Shown here: piece by piece, positions 7,429-31,239 of the stretch | How the letters are laid out: every line of letters starts with the position of its first letter | How positions within the stretch are numbered: the first letter of the stretch is position 1 | From: Blautia parvula | GTDB taxonomy: Bacteria; Bacillota; Clostridia; Lachnospirales; Lachnospiraceae | Assembly (NCBI RefSeq): GCF_020215665.1 | Contig: NZ_CP084061.1 | Span: 6,050,501-6,114,500, forward strand | Length of the DNA stretch: 64,000 nt | Reading direction: 5' to 3' | Position numbers and translations under genes: made by a program | The notes under the pieces: model-generated | What the model saw: the letters and a program-made list of their open reading frames with translations, nothing else | The model's database searches: none | Told to the model about the DNA's origin: nothing

Positions 7429-9189
7429 ATGGGTTACATATCTATTTATTTTGTATTACAGGGGATAGAATTATCAGTGAAAAAGGGAATAATGTTGTCA
7501 GATGCAGTCCGTATGGCCGGATTTCATTTTGATTTTCCATGCGGAGGACATGGGAGCTGCAGGAAATGTGAGCTGGTTATCGCTGATGGTGAAACAAAAA
7601 AGACAGTATTGGCCTGCCAATTTCGTGTAGTATGTTCTTTAAAAGTGTGGGTATCGGAGTACAGGGATGCACAGCTTTTAACAGCGGCAGAACAGGGTGA
7701 AAACCATTGGAGACCGTATTGCAGGGGAATTCGGATAGATGTGCCAGGGGGATTTTCAAATCAATATTGTTCTGATACGCAGGAAATGGCACGATTGGCT
7801 GAGATAAAGGCAGAATTAAAAAAAGGCAGCCTTATCTTTGATAAAGATGCTGCAGCGGAATTAGAACTGCTGATAGAGCAGGGATATAGGAATGTGACAC
7901 TTGTCCGATTCCATGATCGAATCATTTCTGTCTGTGAACAAGATCAGAAAATGGCATTGGCTGCTTTTGACATTGGGACAACATCGTTGGCGGGATATCT
8001 TCTGGACAGTGATGATGGGCATGTTCTTGCGGTGGCAAGCAGGTTTAATCCGCAGAGGTCATACGGAGCGGATGTGATCAGCCGTGCTGTTCATGAAGTG
8101 GAGACACATGATGGAGAACTTGGAAGACTTGTTCATAGAGCAGTGAATGAAATGATTGGAGAATTGACGGCACAGGCGGGCTTAAAACGTGCACAGGTTT
8201 GGCAGATCATGCTGACGGGAAATGTTTGTATGCATCATCTGTTTTTGGGTATATCACCACGTGCGCTTTTGCACGTTCCGTATCACGCAGCAATTACTGA
8301 TGCTTACGAAGGTGAAGCCCGCGTATATGATCTGGATGCGTCTCCGGCAGCGAGGATACAGTTTTTGCCGAATCTGGCAGGGTTTGTGGGAGCCGACACG
8401 GTGGGATGTCTGCTGGCGACAAATTTTACCCGGGAAGAGAAAAAAACTTTGATGATTGATATTGGAACCAATGGTGAACTGGTCATGGGAACCAAGGTGA
8501 AAGCATACACTTGTTCCACAGCAGCAGGTCCGGCTTTAGAAGGTGCAAAAATATCCTGTGGAATGTGTGGTGTTCCGGGAGCTATCCAGCATCTTAATAT
8601 AGAAGATGGTGAACTGAAGATTTCCGTGATAGGAAATGGGAGATCGTTAGGAATTTGCGGTTCTGGTCTGATCGATGCGATTGCGATTCTATATAAGGAG
8701 GGCATGATCGAGCCTCGTGGCAGAATTCAGAAAAAGGATAAGTTAAAAACAGAGTTTTCAAAAAAGAATGCATGGAGGGTCAGGCGTGAAAATGGAAAGA
8801 GCAGTATTTTATTGACAGATAAAGTGTCTCTCACGCAACAGGATATCAGGGAAGTGCAGCTGGCAAAAAGTGCCATTGCGGCGGGGATTCAGATTTTGTG
8901 CCGTAGGCTCGGATGGAAACCAAAGGATTTGGAGCAAATTCTGATTGCCGGTGCATTCGGTAATTATATGAATCCGGAGAGTGCATGTGATATCGGGCTT
9001 TTACCAGAAGAATGCCGTGGTAGGATACGCGGAATCGGTAATGCCGCCGGTGAAGGGGCTAAGCTGGCAATGTCGGATGAAGAGTATTGGATGCAGGCAA
9101 TGCAGATTCAGAAGCATGTCGAATTTGTGGAGTTGGCCTCAGAAAAGGATTTTCAGGAAAGGTTTGTGAGAAACCTGGATTTTGGATAA
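7429..9189 (+). CDS. RACo-type reductive activator of corrinoid protein (2Fe-2S + ASKHA ATPase, DUF4445)
   Basis: 586 aa. It reactivates the corrinoid protein when Co(I) is accidentally oxidised to Co(II), using ATP and electrons from its own [2Fe-2S] cluster. The N-terminus (to ~70) is a plant-type ferredoxin domain with PCGGHGSCRKC (Cx5Cx2C) and a later LACQ cysteine. From ~180 the sequence is an ASKHA-fold ATPase (DIGTTSLAGYLLD, LMIDIGTNGEL, GAFGNYMNPE), as in RACo of the acetyl-CoA pathway and MtoD/AE proteins of O-demethylases. It has its own promoter and terminator just before the methyltransferase genes, which fits a helper made separately. The family call is strong. That it serves the nearby corrinoid protein at 10330 rather than the CODH/ACS corrinoid protein is inferred from position. 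Confidence 0.88.
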   Translation: MGYISIYFVLQGIELSVKKGIMLSDAVRMAGFHFDFPCGGHGSCRKCELVIADGETKKTVLACQFRVVCSLKVWVSEYRDAQLLTAAEQGENHWRPYCRGIRIDVPGGFSNQYCSDTQEMARLAEIKAELKKGSLIFDKDAAAELELLIEQGYRNVTLVRFHDRIISVCEQDQKMALAAFDIGTTSLAGYLLDSDDGHVLAVASRFNPQRSYGADVISRAVHEVETHDGELGRLVHRAVNEMIGELTAQAGLKRAQVWQIMLTGNVCMHHLFLGISPRALLHVPYHAAITDAYEGEARVYDLDASPAARIQFLPNLAGFVGADTVGCLLATNFTREEKKTLMIDIGTNGELVMGTKVKAYTCSTAAGPALEGAKISCGMCGVPGAIQHLNIEDGELKISVIGNGRSLGICGSGLIDAIAILYKEGMIEPRGRIQKKDKLKTEFSKKNAWRVRRENGKSSILLTDKVSLTQQDIREVQLAKSAIAAGIQILCRRLGWKPKDLEQILIAGAFGNYMNPESACDIGLLPEECRGRIRGIGNAAGEGAKLAMSDEEYWMQAMQIQKHVEFVELASEKDFQERFVRNLDFG

Positions 9190-9193
9190 GAAT

Positions 9194-9222
9194 GACAGCT
9201 CTCCTTTTGGGGAGCTGTTTTT
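9194..9222 (+). terminator. Intrinsic terminator after the activator gene
   Basis: ACAGCTCTCC TTTT GGGGAGCTGT followed by TTTT, 5 nt after the stop codon. Confidence 0.75.
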
Positions 9223-9390
9223 GGTGAAGAATACCTTGTATAGAAATATCTTATGTTCTTATTTGGTTTGTATTATAAGGCGTTCCAAACTATGTGAAAA
9301 ACTTATAAATTCTGGAAGATAAAATTGTGAAATTAGCTGAAAAAATCGACAACCATAAATGATTCTTATTACAATATTTATAAAGTAAAA

Positions 9391-9419
9391 TTTATTGTTC
9401 TAAGATACTTTGTTATAAT
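9391..9419 (+). promoter_or_regulatory. Promoter of the methyltransferase operon
   Basis: A perfect -10 TATAAT (9414-9419) stands 17 nt after TTTATT (9391-9396), in an AT-rich gap about 50 nt before the start of the methyltransferase gene. Confidence 0.5.
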
Positions 9420-9467
9420 TCAACCATACAGAAACTAAATAAAGTTATGAGTAAGGAGAAAAGCATC

Positions 9468-10280
9468 ATGATTCTTATTGGGGAAAAGATCAACGGAGCA
9501 ATTCCGAGTGTAGGAAATGCCATTGCGAACAGAGATGAAGCATGGATTATTGACCTGGTACAGCGTCAGGAAGCAGCTGGGGCTGACTATCTGGATGTCT
9601 GTGCAGGAACCACGCCAGAATTGGAGTATGATACGCTTTGCTGGCTGATTGATGTGGTACAAAGTGTTGCGAATAAACCAATCTGTATAGACAGTCCGGA
9701 TCCGCACATGCTGCTGAGGGTATTTCCGAAGCTGACTAAGCCGGGACTGGTCAATTCCATTTCTATGGAGGGAGAAAAATGCGATGTGCTTCTTCCGCTT
9801 TTGAAAGAAAATCCGGAATGGGGAGTGGTTGCTCTTTGCTGTGACCCGAAGGGGATTGCAGAGAAAGCAGAGGACAAGTTTGCACTTGCGGTCCAACTGG
9901 TAGAGAAAGCAGCAGCTTATGGTATCACACCAGATAGAATTCATATAGATCCATTGGTACTTGCGCTTTCCGCAGTAGATAATTCAGCACTTGAATTTTG
10001 CAAAGCCATCAGAATGATCAAAGAAAAATATCCTAGTATCAATGTAACTGCCGCACTGTCCAATATTTCTTATGGAATGCCGGCACGTAAAGTTGTCAAC
10101 ATCAGTTTCCTGGTCATGGCCATAGAGTCCGGTCTGGATTCTATGATCGCGGATCCGCTGAATAGAGATTCGATGGGAGTGATGTATGCCACAGAGGCAC
10201 TGATGCAGAAAGATAAGTATTGCAGAAAGTATAATAAAGCCTACCGAAAAGGGATTTTTGGAGTGAAGAAGACAAAATAA
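9468..10280 (+). CDS. Methyltetrahydrofolate:corrinoid methyltransferase (MeTr/DHPS-like, MtvA/MtoA type)
   Basis: 270 aa from the ATG at 9468, which has AAGGAG upstream; an ATG at 9447 in the same frame has none. The start MILIGEKINGAIPSV and the blocks GADYLDVCAG, CIDSPDP, NSISMEG and NVTAALSNISYGMPAR are those of the pterin-binding TIM barrel family (AcsE, MtvA). Expected reaction: transfer of the methyl group from methyl-Co(III) on the partner corrinoid protein to tetrahydrofolate, feeding the Wood-Ljungdahl methyl branch. It precedes the corrinoid protein and a UroD-type methyltransferase with short gaps, so the three form one operon. The pterin acceptor is inferred from the family. Confidence 0.9.
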   Translation: MILIGEKINGAIPSVGNAIANRDEAWIIDLVQRQEAAGADYLDVCAGTTPELEYDTLCWLIDVVQSVANKPICIDSPDPHMLLRVFPKLTKPGLVNSISMEGEKCDVLLPLLKENPEWGVVALCCDPKGIAEKAEDKFALAVQLVEKAAAYGITPDRIHIDPLVLALSAVDNSALEFCKAIRMIKEKYPSINVTAALSNISYGMPARKVVNISFLVMAIESGLDSMIADPLNRDSMGVMYATEALMQKDKYCRKYNKAYRKGIFGVKKTK

Positions 10281-10329
10281 AGATTTTTAGTAACAGAGTA
10301 TCAAGAACAGATAAAAAGGAGGATGTAAT

Positions 10330-10974
10330 ATGGTAAGCATGGAAGCACTCGCTGAGGCTATGGGGGAACTGGAGGAAGATACAGTAGTAGAGCTTTTAGA
10401 GCAGGTAATGGAAGAGGGGGGTAAACAGGCACAGGAGGCTATGGACGCATGTCAGAAAGGCATGGATATCGTCGGAAGCTATTTTGAAGAGGGCGAATAT
10501 TTTGTGAGTGACCTGATTTTTGCCGGGGATCTGATGAGCCAAGCTGTAGGTATTTTGAAAGATGCTCTGATTTCTGGTGACGGTAAAGAAGGTCCTCAGA
10601 CCTCGCTGATTCTGTGTACAGTACAGAATGACCTTCATGACATTGGAAAGAATATTGTTCGTTCTATGTTGGAAGCAGGTGGTTTTCATGTCATCGATCT
10701 CGGCATTGATGTAGCTCCCGGAACGATTGTAGATAAGGTTAAAGAGACGGATGTAAAAATCGTATTGTTAAGCGGTGTATTGACTTTAGCAATCAATTCT
10801 ATGAAAGCAACAGTAGAAGCCTTAAAGGAGGCGGGATTAAGAGATTACTGCCATGTTCTGATCGGCGGTGCACCAGTAAGTGCGGAATATTGTGAGGTTG
10901 TCGGCGCAGATGCCTGGGCGCATAATCCGCAGACAACGGTACAATACTGCAAAGAGTGGGCAGCCGTGTCATAA
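10330..10974 (+). CDS. Corrinoid (B12-binding) methyl-carrier protein, MtvC/MtoC type
   Basis: 214 aa. A helical cap domain (residues ~1-85) is followed by the Rossmann-like cobalamin domain with DLHDIGKNIV, the DxHxxG signature in which His replaces the lower axial ligand of cobalt. Later VVLLSGVLTLAINSM and VLIGGAPVS correspond to the SxL and GG motifs. The protein shuttles a methyl group between the substrate methyltransferase (11040) and the folate methyltransferase (9468). Ribosome site AGGAGG is close to the ATG. Family call is very safe. Confidence 0.95.
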   Translation: MVSMEALAEAMGELEEDTVVELLEQVMEEGGKQAQEAMDACQKGMDIVGSYFEEGEYFVSDLIFAGDLMSQAVGILKDALISGDGKEGPQTSLILCTVQNDLHDIGKNIVRSMLEAGGFHVIDLGIDVAPGTIVDKVKETDVKIVLLSGVLTLAINSMKATVEALKEAGLRDYCHVLIGGAPVSAEYCEVVGADAWAHNPQTTVQYCKEWAAVS

Positions 10975-11039
10975 TAAGATATCAGCGGCTTCTGATCAGT
11001 TTAGATTATGAAAGCCGTCAGAATACAGGAGGGTAAGCA

Positions 11040-12206
11040 ATGAATTTAAGTCAGGAGTACCATGACAATCTTCAGCGTGTCCGTGACTGTACGAATTTTA
11101 AACATGTAGATAGAATTATTCATTTGAGTAACTTTTATACATGGAAGATTCTTGATTCGGACAGACATGTAAAATTGAGCGAGGCAATGACCAGTTATGA
11201 GACACTGGAACTGATTCAGAGAGAATTTCAGGAGAAATACAAATTCGATGTTCATATGGATCTGAATACGCGCAACCTGATCCTTCCATCTCAGGCGATG
11301 GGGACTGGCAGCCATATCATGATTGATGATGTAAATGAGTCTATAAACTTTTATGATCATGTACTTATGGGGCAGGATGAATATCCGGACTATAAGAATC
11401 ACCGTGCCGAAATGAATTGGAAGATGTTCAATCGTAAATACCCTAATTTGGATAAGAGACATTTTCTGGATGCATTTATCAAACAGCAGGAAGCGAGTGC
11501 GTTTTCAGGTTACATGGGGCGTATGATGGTAGAAGATTATGCCTGTCTTGGGGTATATGATACTGATGTTGCAGGCGGATCTGTGCAGGTACCGTTTGAG
11601 AGATTTCCAAAATATTATCGTGGTATAAAGGAAATTTCGTTTGACATGCGAAGAAAAAAGTCTGACATGCTGGATTGTTTGGATTATATTCAGGAGAATG
11701 AAATTATCCCGGGATTGAAGAAGACGCTTGCCGAGATGGAGGGAAAGGAACAGTTATACATGGCGGATTTTATGATCGCTATGCTGGCTCATGGAACGAT
11801 TAGTCAGAAGCAGTGGGACATCTTCTATTGGCCATATTTAAAGGAATATTTGGATCTGATCGTGGCGGCGGGCAAGACGGTTGTTATCTATTTGGAGAAC
11901 AGTATCATGCGTTTTGCAGAGTATTTTCAGGATTACCCTAAGGGCCATATTATCATGATTCTGGAACTAGATGATTTAGTAGAACTGCGTAAAAAACTGC
12001 CGAATATCTGTTTTGCAGGTGGTATGACTGCAGCTTTGTTAGGAAACGGAACACCGGAACAGTGCGTTGATCGTGTGAAATATCTTGCAAATGAGCTTGG
12101 TGATGGTTTTATCTTAAGTCAGGATAAGATGATGGCATTCCGAAATGACTGTCGTCGTGAAAATCTGGAAGCTGTCTGTGAATATGTAAATAATTTCCGT
12201 TGGTGA
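11040..12206 (+). CDS. UroD-fold substrate:corrinoid methyltransferase (MtoB/MtvB-like demethylase)
   Basis: 388 aa, of uroporphyrinogen-decarboxylase fold by the C-terminal blocks AGKTVVIYLEN, LPNICFAGGMTAALLGNGTPEQC and GFILSQDKM. In such operons this is methyltransferase I, which takes the methyl group from the growth substrate and puts it on Co(I). Proteins of this fold demethylate methoxylated aromatics in Mtv/Mto systems; others act on methanol-derived CoM or methylamines. Where many MtaA/MtbA relatives have an HxC zinc motif, this protein reads YLE, so zinc binding may be altered or absent. The substrate is not readable. It is directly downstream of the corrinoid protein (65-nt gap, AGGAGG). 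Confidence 0.82.
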   Translation: MNLSQEYHDNLQRVRDCTNFKHVDRIIHLSNFYTWKILDSDRHVKLSEAMTSYETLELIQREFQEKYKFDVHMDLNTRNLILPSQAMGTGSHIMIDDVNESINFYDHVLMGQDEYPDYKNHRAEMNWKMFNRKYPNLDKRHFLDAFIKQQEASAFSGYMGRMMVEDYACLGVYDTDVAGGSVQVPFERFPKYYRGIKEISFDMRRKKSDMLDCLDYIQENEIIPGLKKTLAEMEGKEQLYMADFMIAMLAHGTISQKQWDIFYWPYLKEYLDLIVAAGKTVVIYLENSIMRFAEYFQDYPKGHIIMILELDDLVELRKKLPNICFAGGMTAALLGNGTPEQCVDRVKYLANELGDGFILSQDKMMAFRNDCRRENLEAVCEYVNNFRW

Positions 12207-12233
12207 TGAACACATCGGACAAGGAGGTATATC

Positions 12234-12434
12234 ATGGGTTTATTTGATTATGGTACACTCACCCAGGAGCGTCAGGCGGAGGCTGCAAAGATTCCGGAAG
12301 AGGTACTTGCTGAGACTATAAATCTAAATATTCCGGAAGGTGTAGAAGAGTTGGCTGCTCTGCTCACTTTTATTCCGGAAGAGAAGAGGGCTGCTGCTAT
12401 TCAAGGTTTTATTGGCTCTATGCTGGTGACCTGA
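12234..12434 (+). CDS. Small acidic protein of the methyltransferase operon
   Basis: 66 aa, with a strong AAGGAGG ribosome site and 27 nt after the UroD-type gene. It is rich in Glu and Ala, mostly predicted helical, with no cysteines, no membrane segment and no motif I recognise. Key stretches are LFDYGTLTQERQ and FIPEEKRAAAIQGFIGSM. Its place between methyltransferase I and a transporter suggests a partner or stabiliser of the demethylase, but that is inference. The good ribosome site and tight spacing make it a real gene. Confidence 0.7.
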   Translation: MGLFDYGTLTQERQAEAAKIPEEVLAETINLNIPEGVEELAALLTFIPEEKRAAAIQGFIGSMLVT

Positions 12435-12494: not shown

Positions 12495-13841
12495 ATGGAA
12501 CTAGGTGTTTGGGGAATTATCAAAGAGTATCCGTCCTTGATTGGACTGATTCCAATGGTTCTTTACATTATTTTGGCTTTCAAAAAGGGAATTGATCCGG
12601 TTATCCCACTTTTGATTTCTATTGTGATTGGCTGGCTTTTGACCGGAAATGGCGCAACTGTATTTGGTCAGGAGGTGGGAACTTCTCTTTCCAGTGTTTT
12701 GGGTCAGGTAGGATTCCTATCCATGGAAGGTGCGGGTTTGGGTATTGTATTAAAGGAGGCAGGTGTCAGTGCAACGCTATGTAAGCTGATTGCCAATAAG
12801 CTGGGGGTCAAGACGCAGAAACAGGCACTGATCACGCTTATGGTTTGTCAGTTTATCCTGGCTACCTGCGTTGGGTCTGGTGTATCTGCGGCCGCTATTG
12901 TTATGCCGGTGCTGCTTCCGATGCTGGCTTTGACTGGTGTTACACCGGTTGCTGCAACAGTTGCTTTTATCCTTAGCGGACTTGCAGGCATGCTGTTAGC
13001 TCCGTTTGCTGCTCCGAATATTATGGCAATGAGCCTGACTGGGTTAAGTTATCCACAGTATTTGTTGTGGGGAGCAGGTCCGTATCTTATTGTTATGCTG
13101 ATCACTGCGGTGATTTTAAGTTTTTGGATTGACAAGAAAGCAAAGAAGGATCCAAATGGAGAAAAATATGAGTTGAGTGATGCAGAAAAGGATATGACTG
13201 CTAAACCGACTCAGAAAGAAAAAATCACTACGATAGCTTTTATTGTAACCTTTGCACTTTGTATTGCTTACGCAATTGCATTCCGTCAGGGCATGGCATT
13301 TGTTATCTTTGTTCTTCCGTTTTTGGCAGTTGTTGTGGCAGTGTTTTCAAGAATGGGTGTTAACAAAGCCTGTGATGCTTTTTATACCGGCTGTAAGAAC
13401 ACGATATCGGTATTTATTATCTGCGTACTGTATCAACTTCTGGTTGATGTGGTAAACGTAGCAGGCGGTTTTGAAGCACTGAGTAATCTGTTTGTTGGTC
13501 TGGTTGGCAGCAGCCCGTCGAAATCAACGGTTATGTTAATGGGGACCTTTGTAGGTGCATTTGGTGTTAACGGCGGCGCGGCTGCCCAGATGCAGATTAT
13601 CCATGAGCTGTTCCTTCCAATGATTCAGCAAAATGGCTTGGGTATGGGATTGTGGTCTATTGTTCTGGTTGCAGGATCTTATGTGACTTCTATTATCTAC
13701 CCTAACGCAACAGTCCTCGCTCCCATGGGTATTGCACGAAGTAAAGATTTCAAAAATATGATGATTTGTATGTGGATATCCAGTGCGATTATCATGGCAT
13801 TCTGTGTACTGTATTGTTTTATTATGCCGATGATTTTTTAA
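12495..13841 (+). CDS. Ion-transporter-superfamily anion permease (GntP/CitMHS-like)
   Basis: 448 aa with about 11-12 hydrophobic segments and inner repeats around GSGVSAAAIVMPVLLPML and FGVNGGAAAQMQIIHELFLPMI, which resemble the paired re-entrant loops of the ion-transporter superfamily (gluconate, citrate or dicarboxylate carriers). It probably brings in the organic anion whose methyl group the operon removes. It is the last gene of the operon and is followed by a two-way terminator. Exact family and substrate are uncertain. Confidence 0.65.
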   Translation: MELGVWGIIKEYPSLIGLIPMVLYIILAFKKGIDPVIPLLISIVIGWLLTGNGATVFGQEVGTSLSSVLGQVGFLSMEGAGLGIVLKEAGVSATLCKLIANKLGVKTQKQALITLMVCQFILATCVGSGVSAAAIVMPVLLPMLALTGVTPVAATVAFILSGLAGMLLAPFAAPNIMAMSLTGLSYPQYLLWGAGPYLIVMLITAVILSFWIDKKAKKDPNGEKYELSDAEKDMTAKPTQKEKITTIAFIVTFALCIAYAIAFRQGMAFVIFVLPFLAVVVAVFSRMGVNKACDAFYTGCKNTISVFIICVLYQLLVDVVNVAGGFEALSNLFVGLVGSSPSKSTVMLMGTFVGAFGVNGGAAAQMQIIHELFLPMIQQNGLGMGLWSIVLVAGSYVTSIIYPNATVLAPMGIARSKDFKNMMICMWISSAIIMAFCVLYCFIMPMIF

Positions 13842-13936: not shown

Positions 13937-14878
13937 TTAATGAATAGAAAACATTTCGCCTGAAAATTGCTGGTGATGTTTTCGCTGAGATTGAATTTCC
14001 TGGATGATGTAATCAAATAGCTCTTTATGTTCCAGATTATATTTCTTTTCTGTCAGCCAGGAAATAGCAGTTCGGCGAATCATGGTATCGTCAGAGAATG
14101 GAATAGCTACGTATCCGTTTCCATAGGTTTTTTCAAAAAAACTTTCAGGAATCAGATTGGCAAAGTGGTCCGTGTAGGCACATTCCTTTATTGCAGCATA
14201 GTAATCAGGATAGTCAAGTTCATGTGCATAGACTGGGGTAAAATGATATTCCTGAAACATTTGGTCATTATGAAGGCGTGTTGGCTGATAACGGTTTAAT
14301 CCGGTTAATTCAATATTCTTGAGATCTGCAATGGAGATGCTTTTACGGGAAGCAAACGGATGACCAGAGGAAACCACTAAGATATACTGTTCTGAAAACA
14401 GGATTTGGTTTGTGACTTGATCATCAATGATTGGAGGGCAAGTTACTGCAAAGTCAATCATGCCATTTTTTAGAATAGCCAAAACCTGTTCTTCATCACC
14501 AAATAGTTTCTTTATGCCAACAGATTGAAAGGAATCAAAATTTCCGGTTATGGAGAGTGCAGAAAAAAATAATGTGCTGACAGAAAAACCGATGGTAATA
14601 AAGCTGTTTCCTTCATTTTGACGAAATTCTGCAGCCGCCTGGGTGAGGCGGTCATGTGCGTCTTTTAGTTCTTTAAAGTAATGATACAGATGTTCTCCGG
14701 CAGGCGAAATGATCAGCTTTTTTCCTTCACGGTAAAAAAGCTGTACATCCAGTTCACTTTCCAGACGGCCAAGTGCAAGGCTTAAGGCCGGCTGGGAAAT
14801 ATATAATTCCTCGGCTGCTTTGCTAAGATTCATATGTTTAACGATTGTAAGATATTGTTTGACTTGCTGGTAATTCAT
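13937..14878 (-). CDS. LysR-family transcriptional regulator 1
   Basis: 313 aa. The N-terminal winged HTH is typical (AAEELYISQPALSLALGRLESEL), followed by a periplasmic-binding-like effector domain (FAVTCPPI, VVSSGHPF). It lies divergent to the MFS gene at 15132 and convergent to the methyltransferase operon, so it probably controls one or both in response to a small ligand. Its HTH and overall layout resemble the regulator at 26760, so the two are probably paralogues. A copy of the structured repeat sits in its upstream region. Confidence 0.92.
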   Translation of the reverse strand: MNYQQVKQYLTIVKHMNLSKAAEELYISQPALSLALGRLESELDVQLFYREGKKLIISPAGEHLYHYFKELKDAHDRLTQAAAEFRQNEGNSFITIGFSVSTLFFSALSITGNFDSFQSVGIKKLFGDEEQVLAILKNGMIDFAVTCPPIIDDQVTNQILFSEQYILVVSSGHPFASRKSISIADLKNIELTGLNRYQPTRLHNDQMFQEYHFTPVYAHELDYPDYYAAIKECAYTDHFANLIPESFFEKTYGNGYVAIPFSDDTMIRRTAISWLTEKKYNLEHKELFDYIIQEIQSQRKHHQQFSGEMFSIH

Positions 14879-21958: not shown

Positions 21959-21968
21959 GAGGTTGGGT

Positions 21969-24047
21969 ATGAGCAGGAAATTGGAATATGGATGGAACGG
22001 AAAGATGTTGCTGATCGATGTGGCGGCTCAAACCTCTGAAGTGCTGGATATATCAGAGTTGTGTGATGAATATATCGGATGCCGTGGGATTGCGGCTAAA
22101 TTAGTTGAGGAATATGGACACCCGGGTGTAGGAGCTTATGATTATGACAATGATTTGATTTACATGGTCGGACCTTGCTGCGAGACTCCGGTGTTGGCCG
22201 GCAGCCGCGGATATTTCTTTGGTGTTGGACCGCAGTGCTACCCAGAACACTGGACACGCTCATCTATAGGCGGACGTGCAAATCTGGGTATGAAACAATG
22301 TGGGGTTGACGGTATTATCTTAAAACATAAATCAAAAGAACCTGTGGTGATTGAAGTTACGGATGACACGAAGGAACCGGTGCATTTTTATGATGGAACG
22401 CCTTACTGGGGAGCTCTTAGTGTGGATACCCAGAAGATGATGAAACAAAAATTTGGCCAGGAAACTGAGTCCTGTGTGATTGGGCCGGCAGGGGAGAACC
22501 TTGTGCGCTTTGCAGGTGTTTTCAGTGACCGCGATAACGCCGCAGCACAGGCAGGTTTTGGCGCGGTATTTGGAGACAAAAAGATTAAAGCAGTTGTATT
22601 TAACGGGCATCAGGGAACACGGGTACAAGATCTGGATACAATTCTGAAACTTAGGGAGGAATGCTTTGGATTGAAAGCTATTCCGAAGCAGAGGGATCCG
22701 CTTCCCGGCACGATGGGTATCGGTTCTGCTCCTACAGGAGCAAAAATAATAACGCAGGAGATTCTTGATAAAGGCGAGGCCTCTTATATTACCCAGAAGG
22801 GAAATGCCTGTGCTGGCTGTGGTATCCCATGCCATCTGGCCGGATATACCTTTGTACGCGGTTCAAAAGGCGCTTATCAGACGAACTGTGATACCACCAA
22901 TAGTTCCAAATGTGTTGCGAAATTTGTCTATGGATGGGCTGCCCTTTGCCCCATGGAACTGGAATGGCTGGAAAAAGGGCTTGGAAGGAATTACCGTTGG
23001 CCCATGGATTTCCGTCGTGGTGCAGAATGTGCTTATATGATCAACAACTATGGTTTGAATTCCTGGGAAGTCGTGTCCTTGTTCATGTGGCTGACTGAAC
23101 TGGAGTGTGCCGGTGTAGATATGGATAAATTGACAGGCGTGCATTGGGATGTGGACGATCCCACCTTGTTTCCTCGTATTATTGAAATGTATGTCTACAG
23201 ACGCGGATTCGGCAATCAATTGGCAGAAGGAATGGCCAGATGCGGCGAAGAGATGGGCGGCATCTATCGCAAGTACAGCGATCATGCAGTACAGGGTATG
23301 TGTAACCATTCTCTCGGAACCGGCGGCTGGTTTGCGCTGAAATATCCATACTGGATATCCTGTGCACTGATGGCAGCAGTAGGGACAAGGGATCCCATGT
23401 CTGATCAGGGTCACAAATATCCGGATTTTTGCGGAAGAAGAGAACCATTTTTACGTCTGCCGGAGTTGGCGAAGGAGTATTATGGTGCAGATGGAACGAT
23501 TGATCCGGACCCGGCATGGAAAGAGTCCATGGACGAGGAAACTTATCATGACATGGCTTATGCACAGAAAGAATATGTCTCCCGAACGATGGAGTTGTAC
23601 GGAATTATCTTAGGATCCGGAGTATTTTGTGATACGGTCTATCCTCAGACGCTCGCTCCGAAGAGAGAAGACCGTGGATATAAAGGTGACTGGGAGATGA
23701 TGGCGAAACTTCTTACTGCGGTCACTGGCGTGGAATACGATAATGAAAGTCTGTTTGCCCGTGCAGAGAAGATCTGGAACATGGAGCGCTGCTACAATGT
23801 TTTGGAAGTGGGAAGATGCAAGAAGGATGACATGCAGATCATCCATTGCCATGATGCAAGGGATGGAGATTGGACAACAGGGACCAAAATTGATCCGGTT
23901 CGTTTCGAAAAACTCCTTGACCGTTATTATAAGCTTGTAGGCTGGGATGAAAATGGAATCCCGACAAGAGAGAAATTATTAGAGTTAGGCCTTGATAAGT
24001 ATAATGAGCGTATCAAGGAGATTCGGGCCAGAGGAGGGCATGCGTGA
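21969..24047 (+). CDS. Aldehyde ferredoxin oxidoreductase family tungstoenzyme
   Basis: 692 aa from ATG 21969 with AGGAGG seven bases upstream (a TTG six bases earlier is less likely). N-terminal AOR fold (GCRGIAAKLVEE, GPCCETPVLAGSRGYFFGV, SSIGGRANLGMKQCGVDGIIL) binds the tungsten bis-pyranopterin. The [4Fe-4S] ligands are C281, C284 and C288 (CAGCGIPC) plus C554 (GVFCDTV), the CxxCxxxC...C spacing of the family. Members oxidise aldehydes, reduce acids or, as BamB, reduce benzoyl-CoA. With a ferredoxin subunit, a CoA ligase and a CoA-transferase next door, reduction of an acyl/aryl-CoA or acid is the likely role, but the branch of the family was not determined. Confidence 0.9.
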   Translation: MSRKLEYGWNGKMLLIDVAAQTSEVLDISELCDEYIGCRGIAAKLVEEYGHPGVGAYDYDNDLIYMVGPCCETPVLAGSRGYFFGVGPQCYPEHWTRSSIGGRANLGMKQCGVDGIILKHKSKEPVVIEVTDDTKEPVHFYDGTPYWGALSVDTQKMMKQKFGQETESCVIGPAGENLVRFAGVFSDRDNAAAQAGFGAVFGDKKIKAVVFNGHQGTRVQDLDTILKLREECFGLKAIPKQRDPLPGTMGIGSAPTGAKIITQEILDKGEASYITQKGNACAGCGIPCHLAGYTFVRGSKGAYQTNCDTTNSSKCVAKFVYGWAALCPMELEWLEKGLGRNYRWPMDFRRGAECAYMINNYGLNSWEVVSLFMWLTELECAGVDMDKLTGVHWDVDDPTLFPRIIEMYVYRRGFGNQLAEGMARCGEEMGGIYRKYSDHAVQGMCNHSLGTGGWFALKYPYWISCALMAAVGTRDPMSDQGHKYPDFCGRREPFLRLPELAKEYYGADGTIDPDPAWKESMDEETYHDMAYAQKEYVSRTMELYGIILGSGVFCDTVYPQTLAPKREDRGYKGDWEMMAKLLTAVTGVEYDNESLFARAEKIWNMERCYNVLEVGRCKKDDMQIIHCHDARDGDWTTGTKIDPVRFEKLLDRYYKLVGWDENGIPTREKLLELGLDKYNERIKEIRARGGHA

Positions 24048-24334
24048 TGAAAGAAAATATGGAGTTTTATGCCAGGTGCTCTTATTTCTGGCCAAAATTC
24101 CACGACGAGGGCGCAATCGTGTACAGCACGGTCGTGGAATGTGGATATAAGGAACCGTTAACCTGCAGAACCAGGGAAGAGGCAGATGCGATAATAAAAA
24201 AAATGAATGAAGATCGTCCTTGTCCTAAATGTCAAAAGATTCATAAATGGAAAGCTATGACGGAATTTGAAATTGGCCAGCAGGAAAATATGATTGCAAA
24301 TATTATGAATAAAGATATTTCCAAACAGAGATAA
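24047..24334 (+). CDS. Small CxxC protein coupled to the AOR gene
   Basis: 95 aa; its ATG overlaps the AOR stop (TGATG), so translation is probably coupled. There is one CPKC pair and two more cysteines (RCSYFW, VECGY), and aromatic residues at the N-terminus. I do not recognise the family. Placement argues for an accessory of the oxidoreductase, such as an assembly or electron-transfer partner. Confidence 0.65.
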   Translation: MKENMEFYARCSYFWPKFHDEGAIVYSTVVECGYKEPLTCRTREEADAIIKKMNEDRPCPKCQKIHKWKAMTEFEIGQQENMIANIMNKDISKQR

Positions 24335-24372: not shown

Positions 24373-25230
24373 ATGAGGACATGGTTGATCACAGGATGCT
24401 CCAGCGGAATGGGAGCAGGTATTGCAAAGGCTGTGCTCGCGAAGGGTGAGCAGGCGGTCATTACTGCGAGGAGCGCGGAAAAGATGAAAGAAATCTGTGA
24501 TAAATATCCGGAGACTGCTTTGGGGATTGCATTGGATGTGTGTAGTCAGGAAAGCATTGATGCAGCATTTGATGCGGCGGTTGCCAAATTTGGTAAGATT
24601 GATGTTTTGGTCAATAATGCAGGCTATGGGTACCGTTCATCTGTGGAAGAGGGCGATAAGGAGGCTGTCTATGAGCTGTTTGAGACCAACACATTCGGAC
24701 CTGTGGAATTGATAAAAAAAGTGCTTCCGGGAATGAGAGAAAGACGTAGTGGTGCGATAATTAACATCACTTCCATTGCAGCAGTACGTTCTGCAGTGGG
24801 CTCTGGCTATTATGCAGCAAGCAAGGCGGCTTTGGAGTATATCAGTGAGGGACTTTATAAAGAGGTAAGTCCACTTGGCATCAAGGTTATGATCGTGGAG
24901 CCGGGGGCTTTTAGGACCAGTTTTTATAAGGAGAACAACCTGAAGGGAAGTGAGCATAAGATCAGTGATTATGCAGAGACTGCATGGACAAGGGATCCGA
25001 AACTTGGATCACATAAGATTAACCAGCTTGGTGATCCGGATGCCATTGGTAACGTGTTAATAGAACTGCTTGACAGGGAGGATACTCCCCAGCGCTATGT
25101 GATGGGTTCTGATGCCTACAAAGCTGTAAGTGGTGCACTGAAAAATCGAATCATAGAGGTAGAGAAATATAAAGATTATAGTTTTCGTACTGATTTCAAG
25201 GAAGGAGAAGGCTCTACTCTAAATATCTAG
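24373..25230 (+). CDS. Short-chain dehydrogenase/reductase (SDR)
   Basis: 285 aa. Classical SDR motifs: TGCSSGMGAGIAK (TGxxxGxG cofactor loop), NNAGYG, catalytic Ser in NITSIAA and YYAASK (YxxxK). The Arg at the end of beta-2 (TARSAEK) suggests NADP(H). It would oxidise or reduce a hydroxyl/keto group of the pathway substrate. It has its own AGGAGG site, 38 nt after the previous gene; a hairpin follows it. Confidence 0.92.
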   Translation: MRTWLITGCSSGMGAGIAKAVLAKGEQAVITARSAEKMKEICDKYPETALGIALDVCSQESIDAAFDAAVAKFGKIDVLVNNAGYGYRSSVEEGDKEAVYELFETNTFGPVELIKKVLPGMRERRSGAIINITSIAAVRSAVGSGYYAASKAALEYISEGLYKEVSPLGIKVMIVEPGAFRTSFYKENNLKGSEHKISDYAETAWTRDPKLGSHKINQLGDPDAIGNVLIELLDREDTPQRYVMGSDAYKAVSGALKNRIIEVEKYKDYSFRTDFKEGEGSTLNI

Positions 25231-25262: not shown

Positions 25263-25296
25263 CGGCAGCAGGATAACAAGCTTGCTGCCGTTTCTC
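25263..25296 (+). terminator. Hairpin after the SDR gene
   Basis: CGGCAGCA/TGCTGCCG stem with a 12-nt loop followed by TTTCTC. The weak T-run suggests partial termination before the MFS gene. Confidence 0.5.
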
Positions 25297-25317
25297 AATA
25301 TAATAGGGGAAAATTTT

Positions 25318-26523
25318 ATGAAAAATGTATCTACAAGACGATATGTTTATCTGGTACTGAATTTTGTTATTTTGCTTCTATTGGGAATTGCCTACGCATG
25401 GTCAATATTTGTCGGTCCGTTGGAAAATGCTTATGGATGGACCAGAATGCAGACTTCACTGGCATTTACGATTCTCATGGTTGGTTTTTCCGGAGGAAGT
25501 CTCCTGGCAGGAATATTAGCGAAAAAAATCGGGTTTTCTAAAATATCCATGATTGCCTCCTTATTGGTTGGCGGAGGGCTTGTGGCAACTGCTTTTACCA
25601 GTAGTATTTCGGTGCTCTATGTGACCTATGGTGTGCTTGCAGGCCTTGGTATCGGTATGATCTATAACACTATTGTATCTGTAATTCCCCTATGGTTCCC
25701 GGATAAGAAAGGGATGGTCACGGGTCTTCTTCTGATGGGTTATGCGTTGTCCACTAGTATTTTAAGTCCCATATGCCAGTGGCTTCTGGTCTCTTTTGGA
25801 CCAAAGACGACGTTCTTGACTTTTGGAATTTTGGATTTTGTAGTATTTCTACTTGGCAGCTTTTTTATGAAAGAACCGAATACAGCGGAACTTGTTGAAC
25901 TGCCGGAGATACAGACGACAATTGCTGATCAGGAAATGAAAAATTATACTACCAGCGAAATGCTGCATTCTGTAAAATTTTATGTATATTTTCTGGGCGC
26001 GAATTTTTTGGTCATGTCTGCACTTGGATATTTGAATCATGTGGCTCCGGCTCTGCAAAGTGAGATGGGGATGTCAGCAGTGACGGCTGCTTATGTTGTA
26101 AGCGCTATGAGTTTATGTAACGGAGTTGCGAGACCTTTGGCCGGGCGGATGTTTGATAAGTTTAGTATCAGGTTTGTGCTTCGGGTTATTTGCCTTATTT
26201 ATGCAGTATCCGCATCTCTGGCAGTGTTTGCGCTGAACAGTCATGCGACATGGCTTTTGGTTGTTGCGTCATGTTTGCTTCTATTTGGATATGGTTTTCA
26301 GGGGGCATCACTTCCGTGTGTGATTCGGAGATTTTATGGGAATGAATACTTCTCTATGAATTATTCTATTGTCAGTCTGGTAAGTCTGACAGCATCCTTT
26401 TGTCCAAGTTTCGTAGGAAAAATGCAGGTTCTGTCCGGTTCCTACTCTTTGGGGTTTGCAGTGATGGCTGTTTGCTGCGTAGCCTCGATTCCGCTGATGT
26501 TTATAGCGGGGATAGAAAAATAA
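25318..26523 (+). CDS. MFS transporter, OFA (oxalate/formate antiporter) family-like
   Basis: 401 aa from ATG 25318 (AGGGG upstream; an upstream in-frame start at 25282 lacks a site and lies in the hairpin). Twelve hydrophobic segments; N-terminus NFVILLLLGIAYAWSIFVGPLE and GLGIGMIYNTIVSVIPLWFPDKKGMVTGLLLMG are OFA-family hallmarks. Third carrier of the cluster; an organic acid or its demethylated product is a plausible cargo. Confidence 0.85.
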   Translation: MKNVSTRRYVYLVLNFVILLLLGIAYAWSIFVGPLENAYGWTRMQTSLAFTILMVGFSGGSLLAGILAKKIGFSKISMIASLLVGGGLVATAFTSSISVLYVTYGVLAGLGIGMIYNTIVSVIPLWFPDKKGMVTGLLLMGYALSTSILSPICQWLLVSFGPKTTFLTFGILDFVVFLLGSFFMKEPNTAELVELPEIQTTIADQEMKNYTTSEMLHSVKFYVYFLGANFLVMSALGYLNHVAPALQSEMGMSAVTAAYVVSAMSLCNGVARPLAGRMFDKFSIRFVLRVICLIYAVSASLAVFALNSHATWLLVVASCLLLFGYGFQGASLPCVIRRFYGNEYFSMNYSIVSLVSLTASFCPSFVGKMQVLSGSYSLGFAVMAVCCVASIPLMFIAGIEK

Positions 26524-26531
26524 TATTATAA

Positions 26532-26759: not shown

Positions 26760-27719
26760 ATGGATTATAATCAGATTCAGCGTTTTTTAATGATTGTAAA
26801 GCATTCAAATCTAAGTGGGGCAGCAAAGGAACTGTATATTTCACAACCGGCGCTCAGCTTGTCATTGGCTAATATGGAAAAAGAGTTAGGTATGCCGCTT
26901 TTCTATCGGGTGAAAAATCGTCTGGTCCTGACACCAGAGGGAGAGACTCTGCTGGAGAACTTTGAACATGTAAAAGATGCATTCGACCAATTGGAGGAGA
27001 AGAAAAAGAGTCTTCAGAAAGTGGAGGAACGCAGTATTCGTTTAGGATGCCTTGGTAATTCACTATTTTACGCAACAATGTTTATGGATAACTTTTTACA
27101 AGCGGATGGAATCACTATTGAAACAGTATGTGCTGACACAGAGACTACGGTAGAGATGCTGAAAAACGGACAGTTGGATTTTGTTATTACCTCACCGCCG
27201 TTGGAGGGCCGCGCGATTGGCAACATTAACTTGTATCGGGAAAATATTGTACTTGTAACTTCGCAGAACCATAGGTTATCTGAAAAGAGTGGTCTAATGC
27301 TGAAAGATTTGGAGCATGAAAAATTATTCGGTTTGTCCAGGCAGCATTATTTCAGGAAGTTGTGTGATCGTCTGTGTCGGGAAAAGGGTTATATGCTGGA
27401 CTATCAGATGGAAATGAATATGCTGGACTATTATAGTGCAATAAAAAAACATCAGTATTTGGACGATTTTATTGCGTTTTGTGCAGAGGATAGTTTTGAA
27501 TCATTGTATGGGGAAGGGTATGTCAGCCATCCAATCCTGGATTCAGACTTTACACATATGACGGTACTGTCCTTCATGGCAGAGAGAAAATTACACTTTC
27601 AATATGAGGATTTTGTTAATCATCTGATTCAGCAATATCCGCAGCAGAGAAAGTTGTATGAAAAAATTTATCGGTATATTGTAGCTGGTTATATCAATGA
27701 AAGTGGAAAAGAAGAATGA
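26760..27719 (+). CDS. LysR-family transcriptional regulator 2
   Basis: 319 aa. HTH AAKELYISQPALSLSLANMEKEL is nearly the same as in LysR 1 (13937), and the effector domain (FVITSPPLEGRAI, VLVTSQNHRL) aligns too. Unlike most LysR genes it is not divergent but overlaps the downstream MmgE/PrpD gene by 4 nt (ATGA), so it is the first gene of its operon and may autoregulate. Confidence 0.92.
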   Translation: MDYNQIQRFLMIVKHSNLSGAAKELYISQPALSLSLANMEKELGMPLFYRVKNRLVLTPEGETLLENFEHVKDAFDQLEEKKKSLQKVEERSIRLGCLGNSLFYATMFMDNFLQADGITIETVCADTETTVEMLKNGQLDFVITSPPLEGRAIGNINLYRENIVLVTSQNHRLSEKSGLMLKDLEHEKLFGLSRQHYFRKLCDRLCREKGYMLDYQMEMNMLDYYSAIKKHQYLDDFIAFCAEDSFESLYGEGYVSHPILDSDFTHMTVLSFMAERKLHFQYEDFVNHLIQQYPQQRKLYEKIYRYIVAGYINESGKEE

Positions 27720-29077
27720 ATATCTTAACTTTATTTGGTGAACGGATAGCAGAATTTGCGGTTACTGTCCCATCAAAAGGTCATAAGAGATTTTATATTG
27801 ATGCGTTTCTGAATATCTATGGATGTTTATTGGGGGGAATAAAAAAGAATATCATAGATGTACTCGCGGGATTTTACAATCAGGATGCCGGAGGAACAGG
27901 AAGATATCATCCTATAGGGAGAAGAGAACGGATGTCCATTGCTTCCTGTGTGGCAGTGGATGCGTTGTCTATGGCAGATTTGGCATATGATGATATCCAG
28001 TATGGCACAACACTGCATCCCGCAGGTCCGGTGGCAGCGGCAATCTTGGGTTTGGCAAGAAGAATGCCGATAAGCGGCATACAGGCAATACAGGCGTTTC
28101 AAGTTGGAATGGAAGTTGAATGCAGGATGGCAGTCTGTATGCTGGGGGAGAAGGCAGGTGCTGAAAAGGGATGGTTTCCGACTGGCATCACGGGAGGAAT
28201 TGGTGCGGCTTCAGCATGTGGCTATTTGTTTGGTTTTAATAAGGAACAGATGCAGACGGCGCAAGCCTTGGCAGCTGTACGCGCATGCGGAAATAGGGGG
28301 ACCCACGGATCAAATGCGGCAATGTTAGTACATGCAATTGCTGCAGAATCTGGTTATACAGCTGCAGCATTGACAGCAAATGGATTTAACTGCAGCCCAA
28401 GTGCATTAACCGGGGAAAATGGTTTGATCCGGCAGCTTGCGCATACCCCAAATGTGGAAGAAGCGTTGGCAGGGCTGGGAGAAGTATATGTATGTGAGAG
28501 TACATCCTGCAAACCATATCAATATGGATTTATTGCCTTCGCGGTGATTGATTGTTGTGAGCAACTCAACAGGATTATTAGAGAGTGTGGGAGACAGCCT
28601 GCAAAGCTTACAGCATTTGTTTCCCCTGATGTATATTTGCTGGGAAGAGAGCCGGATCCGCAGGTTGTTGAGGCGGCAGCGGTTTCCCTGAAGTATCTTA
28701 TACAAATGGCGGTTCTGACCCCTGAATATATTTATCGAGAACTGGGTACACATTTTTATCCGCGTGAATACGCAAACGGTGGACTTGAAGTAGAATTGGT
28801 TCAGGACTTACAGATGACAGATGAACAGGCAAGATTATATATAGAGTTTACGGATACAAGCACCTGTGAAGTTTTCTGCAGTGAGGCGCCCGGCTCACCG
28901 AAAAATCCAATGAGCACTCAGATGGTTAAAGAAAAATTCCTACGTCTTGCGATGTCCAGACTGGAAGAAAGAGATGCAGTACGGCTTATGACCCGGTTGG
29001 AAAATATTGATGAGGAGAATACGATTAAGTTTCTGATTCAGAAATGGTCCAGTGGGAAATTTGATCACCATATATAA
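27716..29077 (+). CDS. MmgE/PrpD family protein
   Basis: 453 aa, the common size of the family (2-methylcitrate dehydratase, cis-aconitate decarboxylase and related iminodisuccinate epimerase). Blocks seen: YDDIQYGTTLHPAGPVAAAILGLARR (active-site His region), FQVGMEVECRMA, WFPTGITGGIGAASACGYLFG and KPYQYG. The family adds or removes water, decarboxylates or epimerises carboxylates. Its role here is probably a hydration/dehydration or isomerisation step, but the reaction cannot be read off. Confidence 0.85.
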   Translation: MNILTLFGERIAEFAVTVPSKGHKRFYIDAFLNIYGCLLGGIKKNIIDVLAGFYNQDAGGTGRYHPIGRRERMSIASCVAVDALSMADLAYDDIQYGTTLHPAGPVAAAILGLARRMPISGIQAIQAFQVGMEVECRMAVCMLGEKAGAEKGWFPTGITGGIGAASACGYLFGFNKEQMQTAQALAAVRACGNRGTHGSNAAMLVHAIAAESGYTAAALTANGFNCSPSALTGENGLIRQLAHTPNVEEALAGLGEVYVCESTSCKPYQYGFIAFAVIDCCEQLNRIIRECGRQPAKLTAFVSPDVYLLGREPDPQVVEAAAVSLKYLIQMAVLTPEYIYRELGTHFYPREYANGGLEVELVQDLQMTDEQARLYIEFTDTSTCEVFCSEAPGSPKNPMSTQMVKEKFLRLAMSRLEERDAVRLMTRLENIDEENTIKFLIQKWSSGKFDHHI

Positions 29078-29108: not shown

Positions 29109-29138
29109 TTAGACAATGCAGCAGATACTTTTTATAAT
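29109..29138 (+). promoter_or_regulatory. Possible promoter of the MBL-MBL-DUF2284 genes
   Basis: TTAGAC (29109-29114), 18-nt spacer, TATAAT (29133-29138), ~40 nt before the first MBL gene. Confidence 0.5.
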
Positions 29139-29176
29139 TTAATTAAAAGTATTTTAAATAGGAAAGAGGTAAGAAT

Positions 29177-29968
29177 ATGAAGAAATATACAATTTATCCA
29201 CTTGCACTTTGTGAGCCCATGCCTGAGGCTGCTGCTGCTTTTTATTATAAGGATTACAAGGGTGCTCCAGTGATGTTTATTTATGGATGTTTTTGTCTGG
29301 AGGATAATGAGACAGGGGATTTGGTTATGGTAGATACCGGACTTGCATCACAGGAGGATATAACAAAATATAATTATCCGTTTCGTAGAATCGATGGAGC
29401 ACCGAACTTGAAGAGCGTGATGGATGCAAAGGGGTTGGAACCACAGAAAGTAAAACATATCTTCTTTACACATTTACATCAGGATCATTGCTTTAACCTG
29501 GAGCTGTTTCCAAATGCAGTGATGTATGTACAAAAGATAGAGCTTCAGCATGCGGTAACACCGAATCCCATTGAAGCCAAATCGTATCAAAAATTTAAAC
29601 TTCCCGGACTGCCTGCATGGGCAAAAGCATGGGGACAGATACAGACAATAGAAGGTGATAAAAAAGGTCTGGTCGATGGTATAGAGGTGATGTTTACGCC
29701 GGGACATACACCAGGAAGTATGTCCGTAATTGCCGATACTGAAACAGGAAAATACATTATGTGCGGAGATTTGTTTTATACAGTTGAACAATATGAAGAG
29801 GGAAGAATGAATGGAAACTTTACCAGCCTGGATGAATGGTATCACTCCAGAGATAAGGTGCTGAATTATGTAAAGGAGAACAATGCCCAAATTTTGATGG
29901 TCCATAATCCAGATACATATATGGTAGATGTTTACGGCAGCAGAAAAGGGGTACAATATGAATTATAA
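29177..29968 (+). CDS. MBL-fold metallo-hydrolase 1 (lactonase-like)
   Basis: 263 aa. Metallo-beta-lactamase fold with HLHQDH (zinc motif HxHxDH), the downstream FTPGHTPGSMSV His and CGDLFY Asp. Proteins of this shape include N-acyl-homoserine lactonases and other ester or thioester hydrolases. It overlaps the start of a second MBL gene of similar design, so the two are tandem relatives. Probable role: hydrolysis of a lactone, ester or thioester in the pathway. Confidence 0.88.
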   Translation: MKKYTIYPLALCEPMPEAAAAFYYKDYKGAPVMFIYGCFCLEDNETGDLVMVDTGLASQEDITKYNYPFRRIDGAPNLKSVMDAKGLEPQKVKHIFFTHLHQDHCFNLELFPNAVMYVQKIELQHAVTPNPIEAKSYQKFKLPGLPAWAKAWGQIQTIEGDKKGLVDGIEVMFTPGHTPGSMSVIADTETGKYIMCGDLFYTVEQYEEGRMNGNFTSLDEWYHSRDKVLNYVKENNAQILMVHNPDTYMVDVYGSRKGVQYEL

Positions 29969-30701
29969 AATTTACCCGATTAATCAGGGGACCAGAATTA
30001 TGGACATCCATGATGTAGTATATCGCCAGCCAGTAGGTGAAGACGTTTCTTTTGCATATGGTGCATTTTTACTGAAGGACGCCAAGGGAAAGTTGATTAT
30101 GGTAGACAGTGGAGCTCCAAGTCTTTCAGAAGTCAGAGAAAAGGGATACCCCTTGCGAACCCCGGATGAAGATATTGATATGGTGGAGGAAGTGCGGAAA
30201 CATGGTGTTGATCCGGCAGAAGTATCCATGATCATCTATACACATCTTCATTGGGATCATGCATGGAATACGAACAGTTTTCCAAATGCCACATTGATTG
30301 CACAGGCGGCGGAGATGGCAGCTGCTATCAACCCTATGAAAATTGGAAGAAAATCTTATGGGTTTATGGAGGAGAGCAATGGCCCAGAGTGGCTGCACTC
30401 GATTATGCGCTTTCAGGCTGTAAATGGAGATGTGGAAATACTTCCAGGTATTCGAGTCATAATGACACCCGGGCATACCATCGGAAGCCAGTCTGTACTG
30501 GTGGATACTGAAAAGGGTGTCTATATGCTGCCAGGTGATTGGATCATGTGTGACAGAAACCTGGATATGGAACTACCGGGAGGAAGCACGCCAGATGTTG
30601 CAGCTTGGTACCAGTCTTTGGAAAAGGTGAAAAAGCTGGAGTTTGCAGGAATTCTTCCTTGTCATGATCCAAAGACGTACACGGAAATGTATTATGGTTG
30701 A
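29958..30701 (+). CDS. MBL-fold metallo-hydrolase 2 (lactonase-like)
   Basis: 247 aa from ATG 29958 (AGGGG upstream), overlapping the previous gene by 11 nt. HLHWDH zinc motif, MTPGHTIGSQSV and PGDWIM complete the metal site. It is similar in order of motifs to MBL 1 but diverged in the middle, so the two may act on different substrates or as a heterodimer. Confidence 0.88.
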   Translation: MNYKIYPINQGTRIMDIHDVVYRQPVGEDVSFAYGAFLLKDAKGKLIMVDSGAPSLSEVREKGYPLRTPDEDIDMVEEVRKHGVDPAEVSMIIYTHLHWDHAWNTNSFPNATLIAQAAEMAAAINPMKIGRKSYGFMEESNGPEWLHSIMRFQAVNGDVEILPGIRVIMTPGHTIGSQSVLVDTEKGVYMLPGDWIMCDRNLDMELPGGSTPDVAAWYQSLEKVKKLEFAGILPCHDPKTYTEMYYG

Positions 30702-31239
30702 TAAGAAAAGAAATGTAGAGGACTGGGTTCGGTTGGCAAAAGAGATTGGTTTTTCCCATGCGGGCCCACTGGATCCAAAAACATTAAAAACTGAAAATTG
30801 GGTTCGTGAGACTTGTTCGTCAGATAAATGCCATGCGTACGGACATAATTGGACCTGTCCGCCTGCATGCGGGACTCTGGAGGAATGCGGGGGGCAGATG
30901 GAACAATATGAGTATGGAATCCTGCTTCAGACAGTGGGCATTTTATCCCGGTCTATAGATTACAAGGCTTATATGAAAACGGAAGAGGAGCATAAGGTCT
31001 GCTTTCTGAAGTTTATAGAGAAAATCAAATCAGTTTATCCAGAGGCTCTTTGTCTTGGGGCAGGAGGATGTAGGATATGCGTGCACTGCGCCTATCCGGG
31101 GCCATGCCGTTTTCCGCGAAAGGCATGTTCCTCCATGGAAGCTTATGGATTATTTGTGACCCAAGTATGCCGTGATAACCATATGGACTACTATTATGGT
31201 CCACAGACAATTACATACACTGCATGTGTATTATTTTGA
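30694..31239 (+). CDS. DUF2284 cysteine-rich metal-binding protein
   Basis: 181 aa from ATG 30694, overlapping the MBL 2 stop by 8 nt. Cysteine motifs include CHAYGHNWTCPPACG and GAGGCRICVHCAYPGPCRFPRKAC, the pattern of the predicted metal-binding DUF2284 family. In anaerobes this family often lies near corrinoid methyltransferase or redox genes; function is not established. Last gene of the catabolic cluster. Confidence 0.85.
   Translation: MVDKKRNVEDWVRLAKEIGFSHAGPLDPKTLKTENWVRETCSSDKCHAYGHNWTCPPACGTLEECGGQMEQYEYGILLQTVGILSRSIDYKAYMKTEEEHKVCFLKFIEKIKSVYPEALCLGAGGCRICVHCAYPGPCRFPRKACSSMEAYGLFVTQVCRDNHMDYYYGPQTITYTACVLF

Follow-up and report, generated by a model that had tools for sequence, protein, structure and literature searches.

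A candidate catabolic island of Blautia parvula combining a corrinoid demethylase with AOR-family and CoA genes

The four-component corrinoid O-demethylases of acetogens bring together a corrinoid reductive activator (RACo), a methyltransferase II (MT-II), a corrinoid protein and a URO-D-like methyltransferase I (MT-I). The same four stand together in a 64,000-nucleotide stretch of Blautia parvula DNA (contig NZ_CP084061.1, positions 6,050,501 to 6,114,500; hereafter the window), which covers 6.05-6.11 Mb of a 6.25-Mb single-contig genome. The block at window positions 7429-31239 that holds them also recalls three further systems. An AOR-family (aldehyde oxidoreductase) large subunit lies beside a HydN-like ferredoxin, as in the YdhV/YdhY class (class V of PMC13328260). 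Fold family and a nearby CoA ligase are shared with the class II benzoyl-CoA reductase BamB. The core motifs of a carboxyltransferase (CT) and a carrier-like domain with a hydrophobic N-terminus resemble biotin-dependent acyl-CoA (de)carboxylases such as propionyl-CoA carboxylase (PCC) and methylmalonyl-CoA decarboxylase. From sequence comparison we consider it moderately likely that the block forms a single acquired catabolic island of three exchangeable modules, serving the demethylation of a methylated carboxylate, oxidation by the AOR-family enzyme and, for the window genome, CoA chemistry.

An earlier note on this DNA had named an activator/MT-II/corrinoid/MT-I set plus 15 more genes, and scanning each block open reading frame (ORF) against Pfam and NCBIfam found all 19 within 7429-31239; together with two ORFs that it did not name, at 19273 (biotinyl-like protein) and 24044 (96-aa protein), this makes 21 ORFs. 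The named genes are real, but the list had overlooked a 66-aa gene (12234-12434) and gave one carrier of the major facilitator superfamily (MFS1) a start that we revise to 15132. The first five lines below make up module A, the next three, with the PrpD protein, module B, and the last seven module C; the window carries all three. Percentages give the likeness to counterparts in Sporomusa silvacetica and in G136, a Lachnospiraceae metagenome-assembled genome (MAG).

7429..9189, +, RACo-type corrinoid reductive activator (PF14574, PF17651, weak Fer2)
9447..10280, +, MT-II, methyltetrahydrofolate:corrinoid methyltransferase type (PF00809; NF005719 over cut-off; 57% in Sporomusa)
10330..10974, +, corrinoid protein (PF02310, PF02607; 68% in Sporomusa)
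11040..12206, +, MT-I of its own branch (weak URO-D; CdmB 1.6e-9; 54% in Sporomusa)
12234..12434, +, 66-aa micro-protein behind MT-I (same place in 8/8 loci of the MT-I branch examined)
21452..21958, +, 4Fe-4S ferredoxin subunit (Fer4 families; 67% in G136, 63% in Sporomusa)
21963..24047, +, AOR-family enzyme of a deep branch (PF02730, PF01314; 76% in G136, 69-70% in Sporomusa; tree)
24044..24334, +, 96-aa protein (57% in G136, 44% in Sporomusa, behind AOR in both)
27716..29077, +, MmgE/PrpD protein (PF03972, PF19305; 47% in Sporomusa, there with modules A and B)
16456..18021, +, PccB/MmdA-like CT (PF01039; nearest solved structure PccB 1vrg; 85% in G136)
18050..19255, +, CaiB-type CoA-transferase (PF02515; 80% in G136)
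19273..19743, +, biotinyl-like domain with hydrophobic N-terminus and no biotin lysine (PF00364, 28.4 bits)
19755..21461, +, AMP-forming CoA ligase (PF00501; 60% in G136)
25282..26523, +, MFS carrier 2, lactate/oxalate-formate type (PF07690; SfMCT below cut-off; 60% in G136, there with module C)
29177..29968, +, metallo-beta-lactamase (MBL) hydrolase 1 (PF00753; 60% in G136)
29928..30701, +, MBL hydrolase 2 (PF00753; 42% in G136; true start probably 29958)

In Sporomusa silvacetica, one 16-kb run holds MT-II, the corrinoid protein, MT-I, the micro-gene, an MFS carrier, PrpD, ferredoxin, the AOR-family enzyme, the 96-aa protein, an aldo-keto reductase, FdhD, two MoeA-type proteins and RACo. It is preceded by DUF1638, a second corrinoid protein, a GntR regulator and an SLH-domain protein; FdhD and the MoeA-type genes fit a pterin cofactor. 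The closest relatives found of modules A and B stand side by side here, in a gene order unlike that of the window, and no module C protein (ligase, CaiB and CT included) is matched within the 50 kb read. A short-chain dehydrogenase/reductase (SDR) of 51% lies ~18 kb upstream of MT-II, and two CTs of 43-46% are found elsewhere in this genome, both followed downstream by a biotin carrier motif. G136 has in one run CT, CaiB, both MBL hydrolases, the biotinyl-like protein, ligase, ferredoxin, AOR, the 96-aa protein and MFS carrier 2, followed by an Fe-S aldo-keto reductase and then a PepX-like hydrolase; neither PrpD nor the SDR is matched in the 20 kb covered at that locus. Because Sporomusa has A and B without C, and G136 has the ferredoxin, AOR and 96-aa genes with C and no MT-I match, these loci indicate that the link between demethylase and AOR is conserved and module C separable. 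Module B appears as the hub, joined to A in Sporomusa and the window and to C in the window and G136. The search for conserved co-occurrence that the earlier note had suggested thus returned A with B in one genome and the AOR core with C in another, and its claim that demethylase and AOR/ferredoxin genes belong together is borne out by this adjacency and by the unity of the block described next.

A genome of the same genus (G603) aligns to window positions 1-5521 at 89% and 5677-6844 at 84% identity; 67 bases beyond this left flank in G603 the alignment picks up again at 31673-31792 (85%). G603 has a short intergenic stretch where ~24.5 kb are present in the window, an extent that coincides with 7429-31239, and none of the 21 block proteins has a match in the 20 kb read at the corresponding G603 site. 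The two ends of the block share short repeats.

6808..7005, no strand, left end of block (two short stretches that agree with the right end at 35/42 and 110/139 positions)
31401..31877, no strand, right end of block (the two left-end stretches again; single copy in G603)

These repeats, of 42 and 139 columns (83% and 79%), stand at both ends in the window and occur once in G603. The block is one presence/absence unit relative to G603, in agreement with the single ~24-kb block and the coordinates proposed earlier. Gain is more likely than loss in G603 because AOR was found in one of 20 same-genus genomes (a subset of 145 relatives). Since the block is absent as a whole from one G603 site and modules A and B occur together again in Sporomusa silvacetica, the gene grouping exceeds chance.

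A different account would see here an ordinary methoxy-aromatic O-demethylase operon beside an unrelated AOR/CoA cluster, the two having only an integration site in common. Matches to a profile of two MT-I sequences occur in 13 of 398 genomes of the phylum, its own included; of the 15 places outside its own genome, context covers the six nearest and two remote ones in one genome (G380). Corrinoid genes stand beside MT-I at all six nearest loci, MT-II at five, and a GntR-type gene, recognised by reading, beside the corrinoid gene at four; no AOR or ferredoxin match lies in the 5-20 kb covered at each. Because the MT-I branch also stands without AOR at these loci, AOR is dispensable for demethylation by it. 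These modules, like the G136 and promoter-motif results given next, are what mere neighbourhood would lead one to expect, and they weigh against a single island together with four further points. The AOR core and module C stand in G136 without an MT-I match, in a draft of 380 contigs whose contig starts 65 bases before CT. RACo of Sporomusa is only 35% alike to that of the window. No operator or regulator motif shared by the LysR regulators, and so no common promoter motif, was found among ten intergenic regions compared pairwise (three lengths, 135 tests, 60 shuffles each as null); besides one repeat described below, seven tests passed the 5% threshold set by the shuffles, about the chance expectation. 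Finally, we infer reaction order, direction and substrate from families. What speaks against mere neighbourhood is that the nearest relatives of A and B are paired independently in Sporomusa, with the genes ordered differently; we regard this account as unlikely, though a serious competitor.

The AOR-family enzyme carries AFOR_N and AFOR_C domains (PF02730, PF01314). The members from the window, Sporomusa and G136 form one clade (support 100/100), all retain the cluster cysteines C281, C284, C288 and C554, and the clade joins rows from two genomes, G777 and G021 (support 100/99, long branches), which we provisionally call YdhV-like. The 28 rows were the three members, locus L046 of G777, and 24 of 25 proteins recovered by script from 31 loci, L056 being omitted by hand. 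As a further case of the AOR arrangement, L046 was rejected: its AOR is 25% identical, and the sole matches nearby are those of a ferredoxin (30%) and an SDR (31%). Positions 8745-12235 of that locus hold a different SDR, ferredoxin and AOR cluster beside genes that read as transketolase-like.

GPEYE and RGGCH stretches have an active-site role in aldehyde oxidoreductases. Neither was seen in the three members, at places where alignment and AlphaFold2 model are weak (confidence score, pLDDT, <50 at 287-318 and 475-514) and where several other rows deviate too; the enzyme forms a deep branch, seemingly without the aldehyde-oxidoreductase signatures. Modelled with three sequences it reached a pLDDT of 32, with 28 sequences 70.9, and the predicted fold matched nine chains of solved AOR-family structures about equally (query TM-score, TMq, 0.65-0.70), so the fold match does not decide the enzyme class.

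The earlier note suggested that a methoxylated acid is demethylated and its CoA ester then reduced at low potential; with an aromatic acid, the AOR-family enzyme would act in the manner of a class II benzoyl-CoA reductase. The CoA ligase does adjoin ferredoxin and AOR in the window and in G136, and BamB, of the same family, has the highest query TM-score, if by a small margin (0.70 against 0.65-0.67). Profile scores do not single it out, however: 144 bits for BamB lie below the 165-181 of four AOR/FOR chains and above the 92-134 of four chains from three other AOR-family proteins, which does not decide the matter. Moreover, Pfam revealed no further Bam-like subunit among the 21 block ORFs, only the ferredoxin, and the Sporomusa locus lacks matches to ligase, CaiB and CT in its 50 kb. 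We thus find no support for reduction of a CoA ester, which seems to us improbable; the enzyme is assigned neither to aldehyde oxidases nor to benzoyl-CoA reductases.

In samples that overlap, this AOR was counted in four of the 200 genomes from the family (E<=1e-30; two of them N-terminal matches of 37-40%), one of 398 in the phylum (its own), one of 145 relatives, two of 391 in the class (the second a 25% relative) and one of 28 in the order of Sporomusa. A pattern-based scan of one genome per species in 84,980 species, which misses relatives differing at both patterns, gave two loci, those of Sporomusa silvacetica and G136. Plasmid records hold AOR matches in 54 cases, all <60% identical, the full-length ones including E. 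coli ydhV at 24%; for MT-I they gave one partial match.

All four demethylase components are in the block, MT-I being recognised by a URO-D score of 22.2 bits, just under the curated 23.9 of Pfam, and by its best solved-structure match, CdmB of Acetobacterium malicum subsp. dehalogenans (1.6e-9), an O-demethylating organism. The zinc motif of MT-I is E-x14-E-x20-H; it was found in none of 28 MT-I sequences scanned and so does not discriminate. Thirty MT-I matches in six genomes comprise the window copy, the Sporomusa copy beside AOR (54%) and 28 others of <=34% to the window MT-I, which leaves a methoxylated aromatic substrate unproven. That MT-I instead demethylates an N- or S-methyl compound, the rest being as in the island, would suit its distance from the other matches and the methyl-sulfur or methyl-selenide substrates proposed in the abstract of PMC10418091 for clusters with soluble coenzyme M methyltransferase homologues, but the CdmB match, given its origin, argues against this and we think it scarcely probable.

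In 8/8 loci (the six nearest, Sporomusa and the window), MT-I is followed by an ORF of 41-66 aa that begins 12-27 nt after the stop codon; its consensus centres on TYPEGWNExLAALDFLPEExREAFL. When a profile built from these eight was run on 36 sequences, which include G380 and 28 loci (some of them the same place) of remoter MT-I matches, it gave no additional copy, and there is no model for it in Pfam (window copy) or NCBIfam (window and one other copy). We propose the micro-protein as a putative fifth component of the demethylase. Elsewhere in the phylum, loci L093-L098 are stand-alone MT-I/corrinoid modules that carry the micro-protein.

The CT domain of module C (PF01039, 465.7 bits) keeps its core motifs in an alignment with four carrier-linked CTs. 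All four of these have a biotin lysine motif <=~1.1 kb downstream; in the biotinyl-like protein of the window and its G136 counterpart the motif [EDQ][AST]MK is absent. This raises the question how an acyl-CoA carboxyltransferase works beside a carrier that cannot be biotinylated. Malonate decarboxylase MdcD-MdcE, biotin-independent according to PMC5534430, is a precedent for biotin-free CT-like decarboxylation; the window CT scores 69.6 against TIGR03133 (cut-off 278). As a plain alternative to a biotin-free reaction, a biotin carrier may be used in trans, since the window genome has three other PF00364 loci, each with EAMK.

In the proposed island, the substrate would be a methylated carboxylic acid, with a methyl ether as the likeliest case, and would enter by one of three carriers; we favour such a substrate because these are of carboxylate types. 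MT-I would move the methyl group to the corrinoid protein and MT-II would pass it to tetrahydrofolate, with RACo repairing oxidised cobalamin. The demethylated alcohol would go to a dehydrogenase, which is the SDR here and an aldo-keto reductase at the other two loci, in Sporomusa and the MAG, and the AOR-family enzyme would probably oxidise the demethylated product and reduce its ferredoxin subunit; PrpD would perform a lyase, dehydratase or epimerase step. In the window genome the product would then receive CoA (ligase, CaiB) and be carboxylated or decarboxylated by CT, and the MBL hydrolases would cleave a lactone or thioester, while Sporomusa would stop before the CoA stage or run it with genes elsewhere.

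The gene combination probably amounts to one undescribed breakdown pathway from exchangeable modules. That it is not a described pathway stands in so far as no description of demethylase, AOR and CoA genes combined was found in the open-access literature searched, passages of PMC13328260 and PMC12915777 included; it has to be qualified in that module C is separable from A and B. The words gene cluster or operon do not occur in the passages of PMC12915777 covered, nor do MtrH, DUF1638, aldehyde, RACo, Sporomusa or small protein in the text of PMC10418091. It is a more tentative proposal that corrinoid demethylation feeds a non-aldehyde AOR-family Mo/W enzyme, a CT without biotinylated partner handles the product and the micro-protein is the fifth component, all at once. 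If true, corrinoid demethylation would open a complete breakdown pathway that moves between anaerobes, an AOR-family branch grouping with YdhV-like rows would gain a testable substrate class, and a demethylase branch a conserved micro-protein.

The remaining genes of the block are carriers, regulators and two further proteins.

12495..13841, +, DcuC/DctM-like carboxylate carrier (PF03606, PF06808)
13937..14878, -, LysR regulator 1 (PF00126, PF03466)
15132..16349, +, MFS carrier 1 (PF07690; start moved from 15021 by sequence reading)
24373..25230, +, SDR oxidoreductase (PF00106)
26760..27719, +, LysR regulator 2 (PF00126, PF03466)
30643..31239, +, DUF2284 protein (PF10050; true start probably 30694)

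Identity is 36% between the two LysR regulators (over 304 aa) and likewise 36% between the two MBL hydrolases. For MFS1 a start at GTG 15132 is probable, since the ATG upstream falls within or next to a repeat that recurs near 5597. This intergenic repeat has two copies, near 5597 (-) and 15055 (+), 29/30 bases identical on opposite strands, one of them directly before MFS1. The 96-aa protein reached the cut-off of no Pfam or NCBIfam family, and PADLOC gave no match for three small or unfamilied proteins. To the right, RtcB-like, AAA ATPase and DUF2201 genes (Pfam) adjoin the block at 31716-36153 and are unmatched in the 20 kb read at the G603 site; a short phage-integrase-family ORF (36198-36674; PF00589, partial profile), likewise without match in the G603 stretch, separates DUF2201 from GH123, which is present there. 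An azaaromatic (yjdF) riboswitch at 38689-38825 (+, 68.5 bits) is the sole Rfam match in 5000-40000.

Compared with the O-demethylases of acetogens, the window has an MT-I of its own branch, a micro-protein and a linked AOR/ferredoxin core. Its AOR is only ~25% identical to the YdhV/YdhY class and is linked to demethylase and CoA genes, not to membrane subunits; it scores lower against BamB than against four AOR/FOR chains, in a block without another Bam-like subunit. Unlike the biotin-dependent (de)carboxylases, the window has a carrier-like domain without biotin lysine and no membrane beta subunit among its block ORFs, and its CT, in contrast to MdcD-MdcE malonate decarboxylase (PMC5534430), is of the one-chain PccB/MmdA type.

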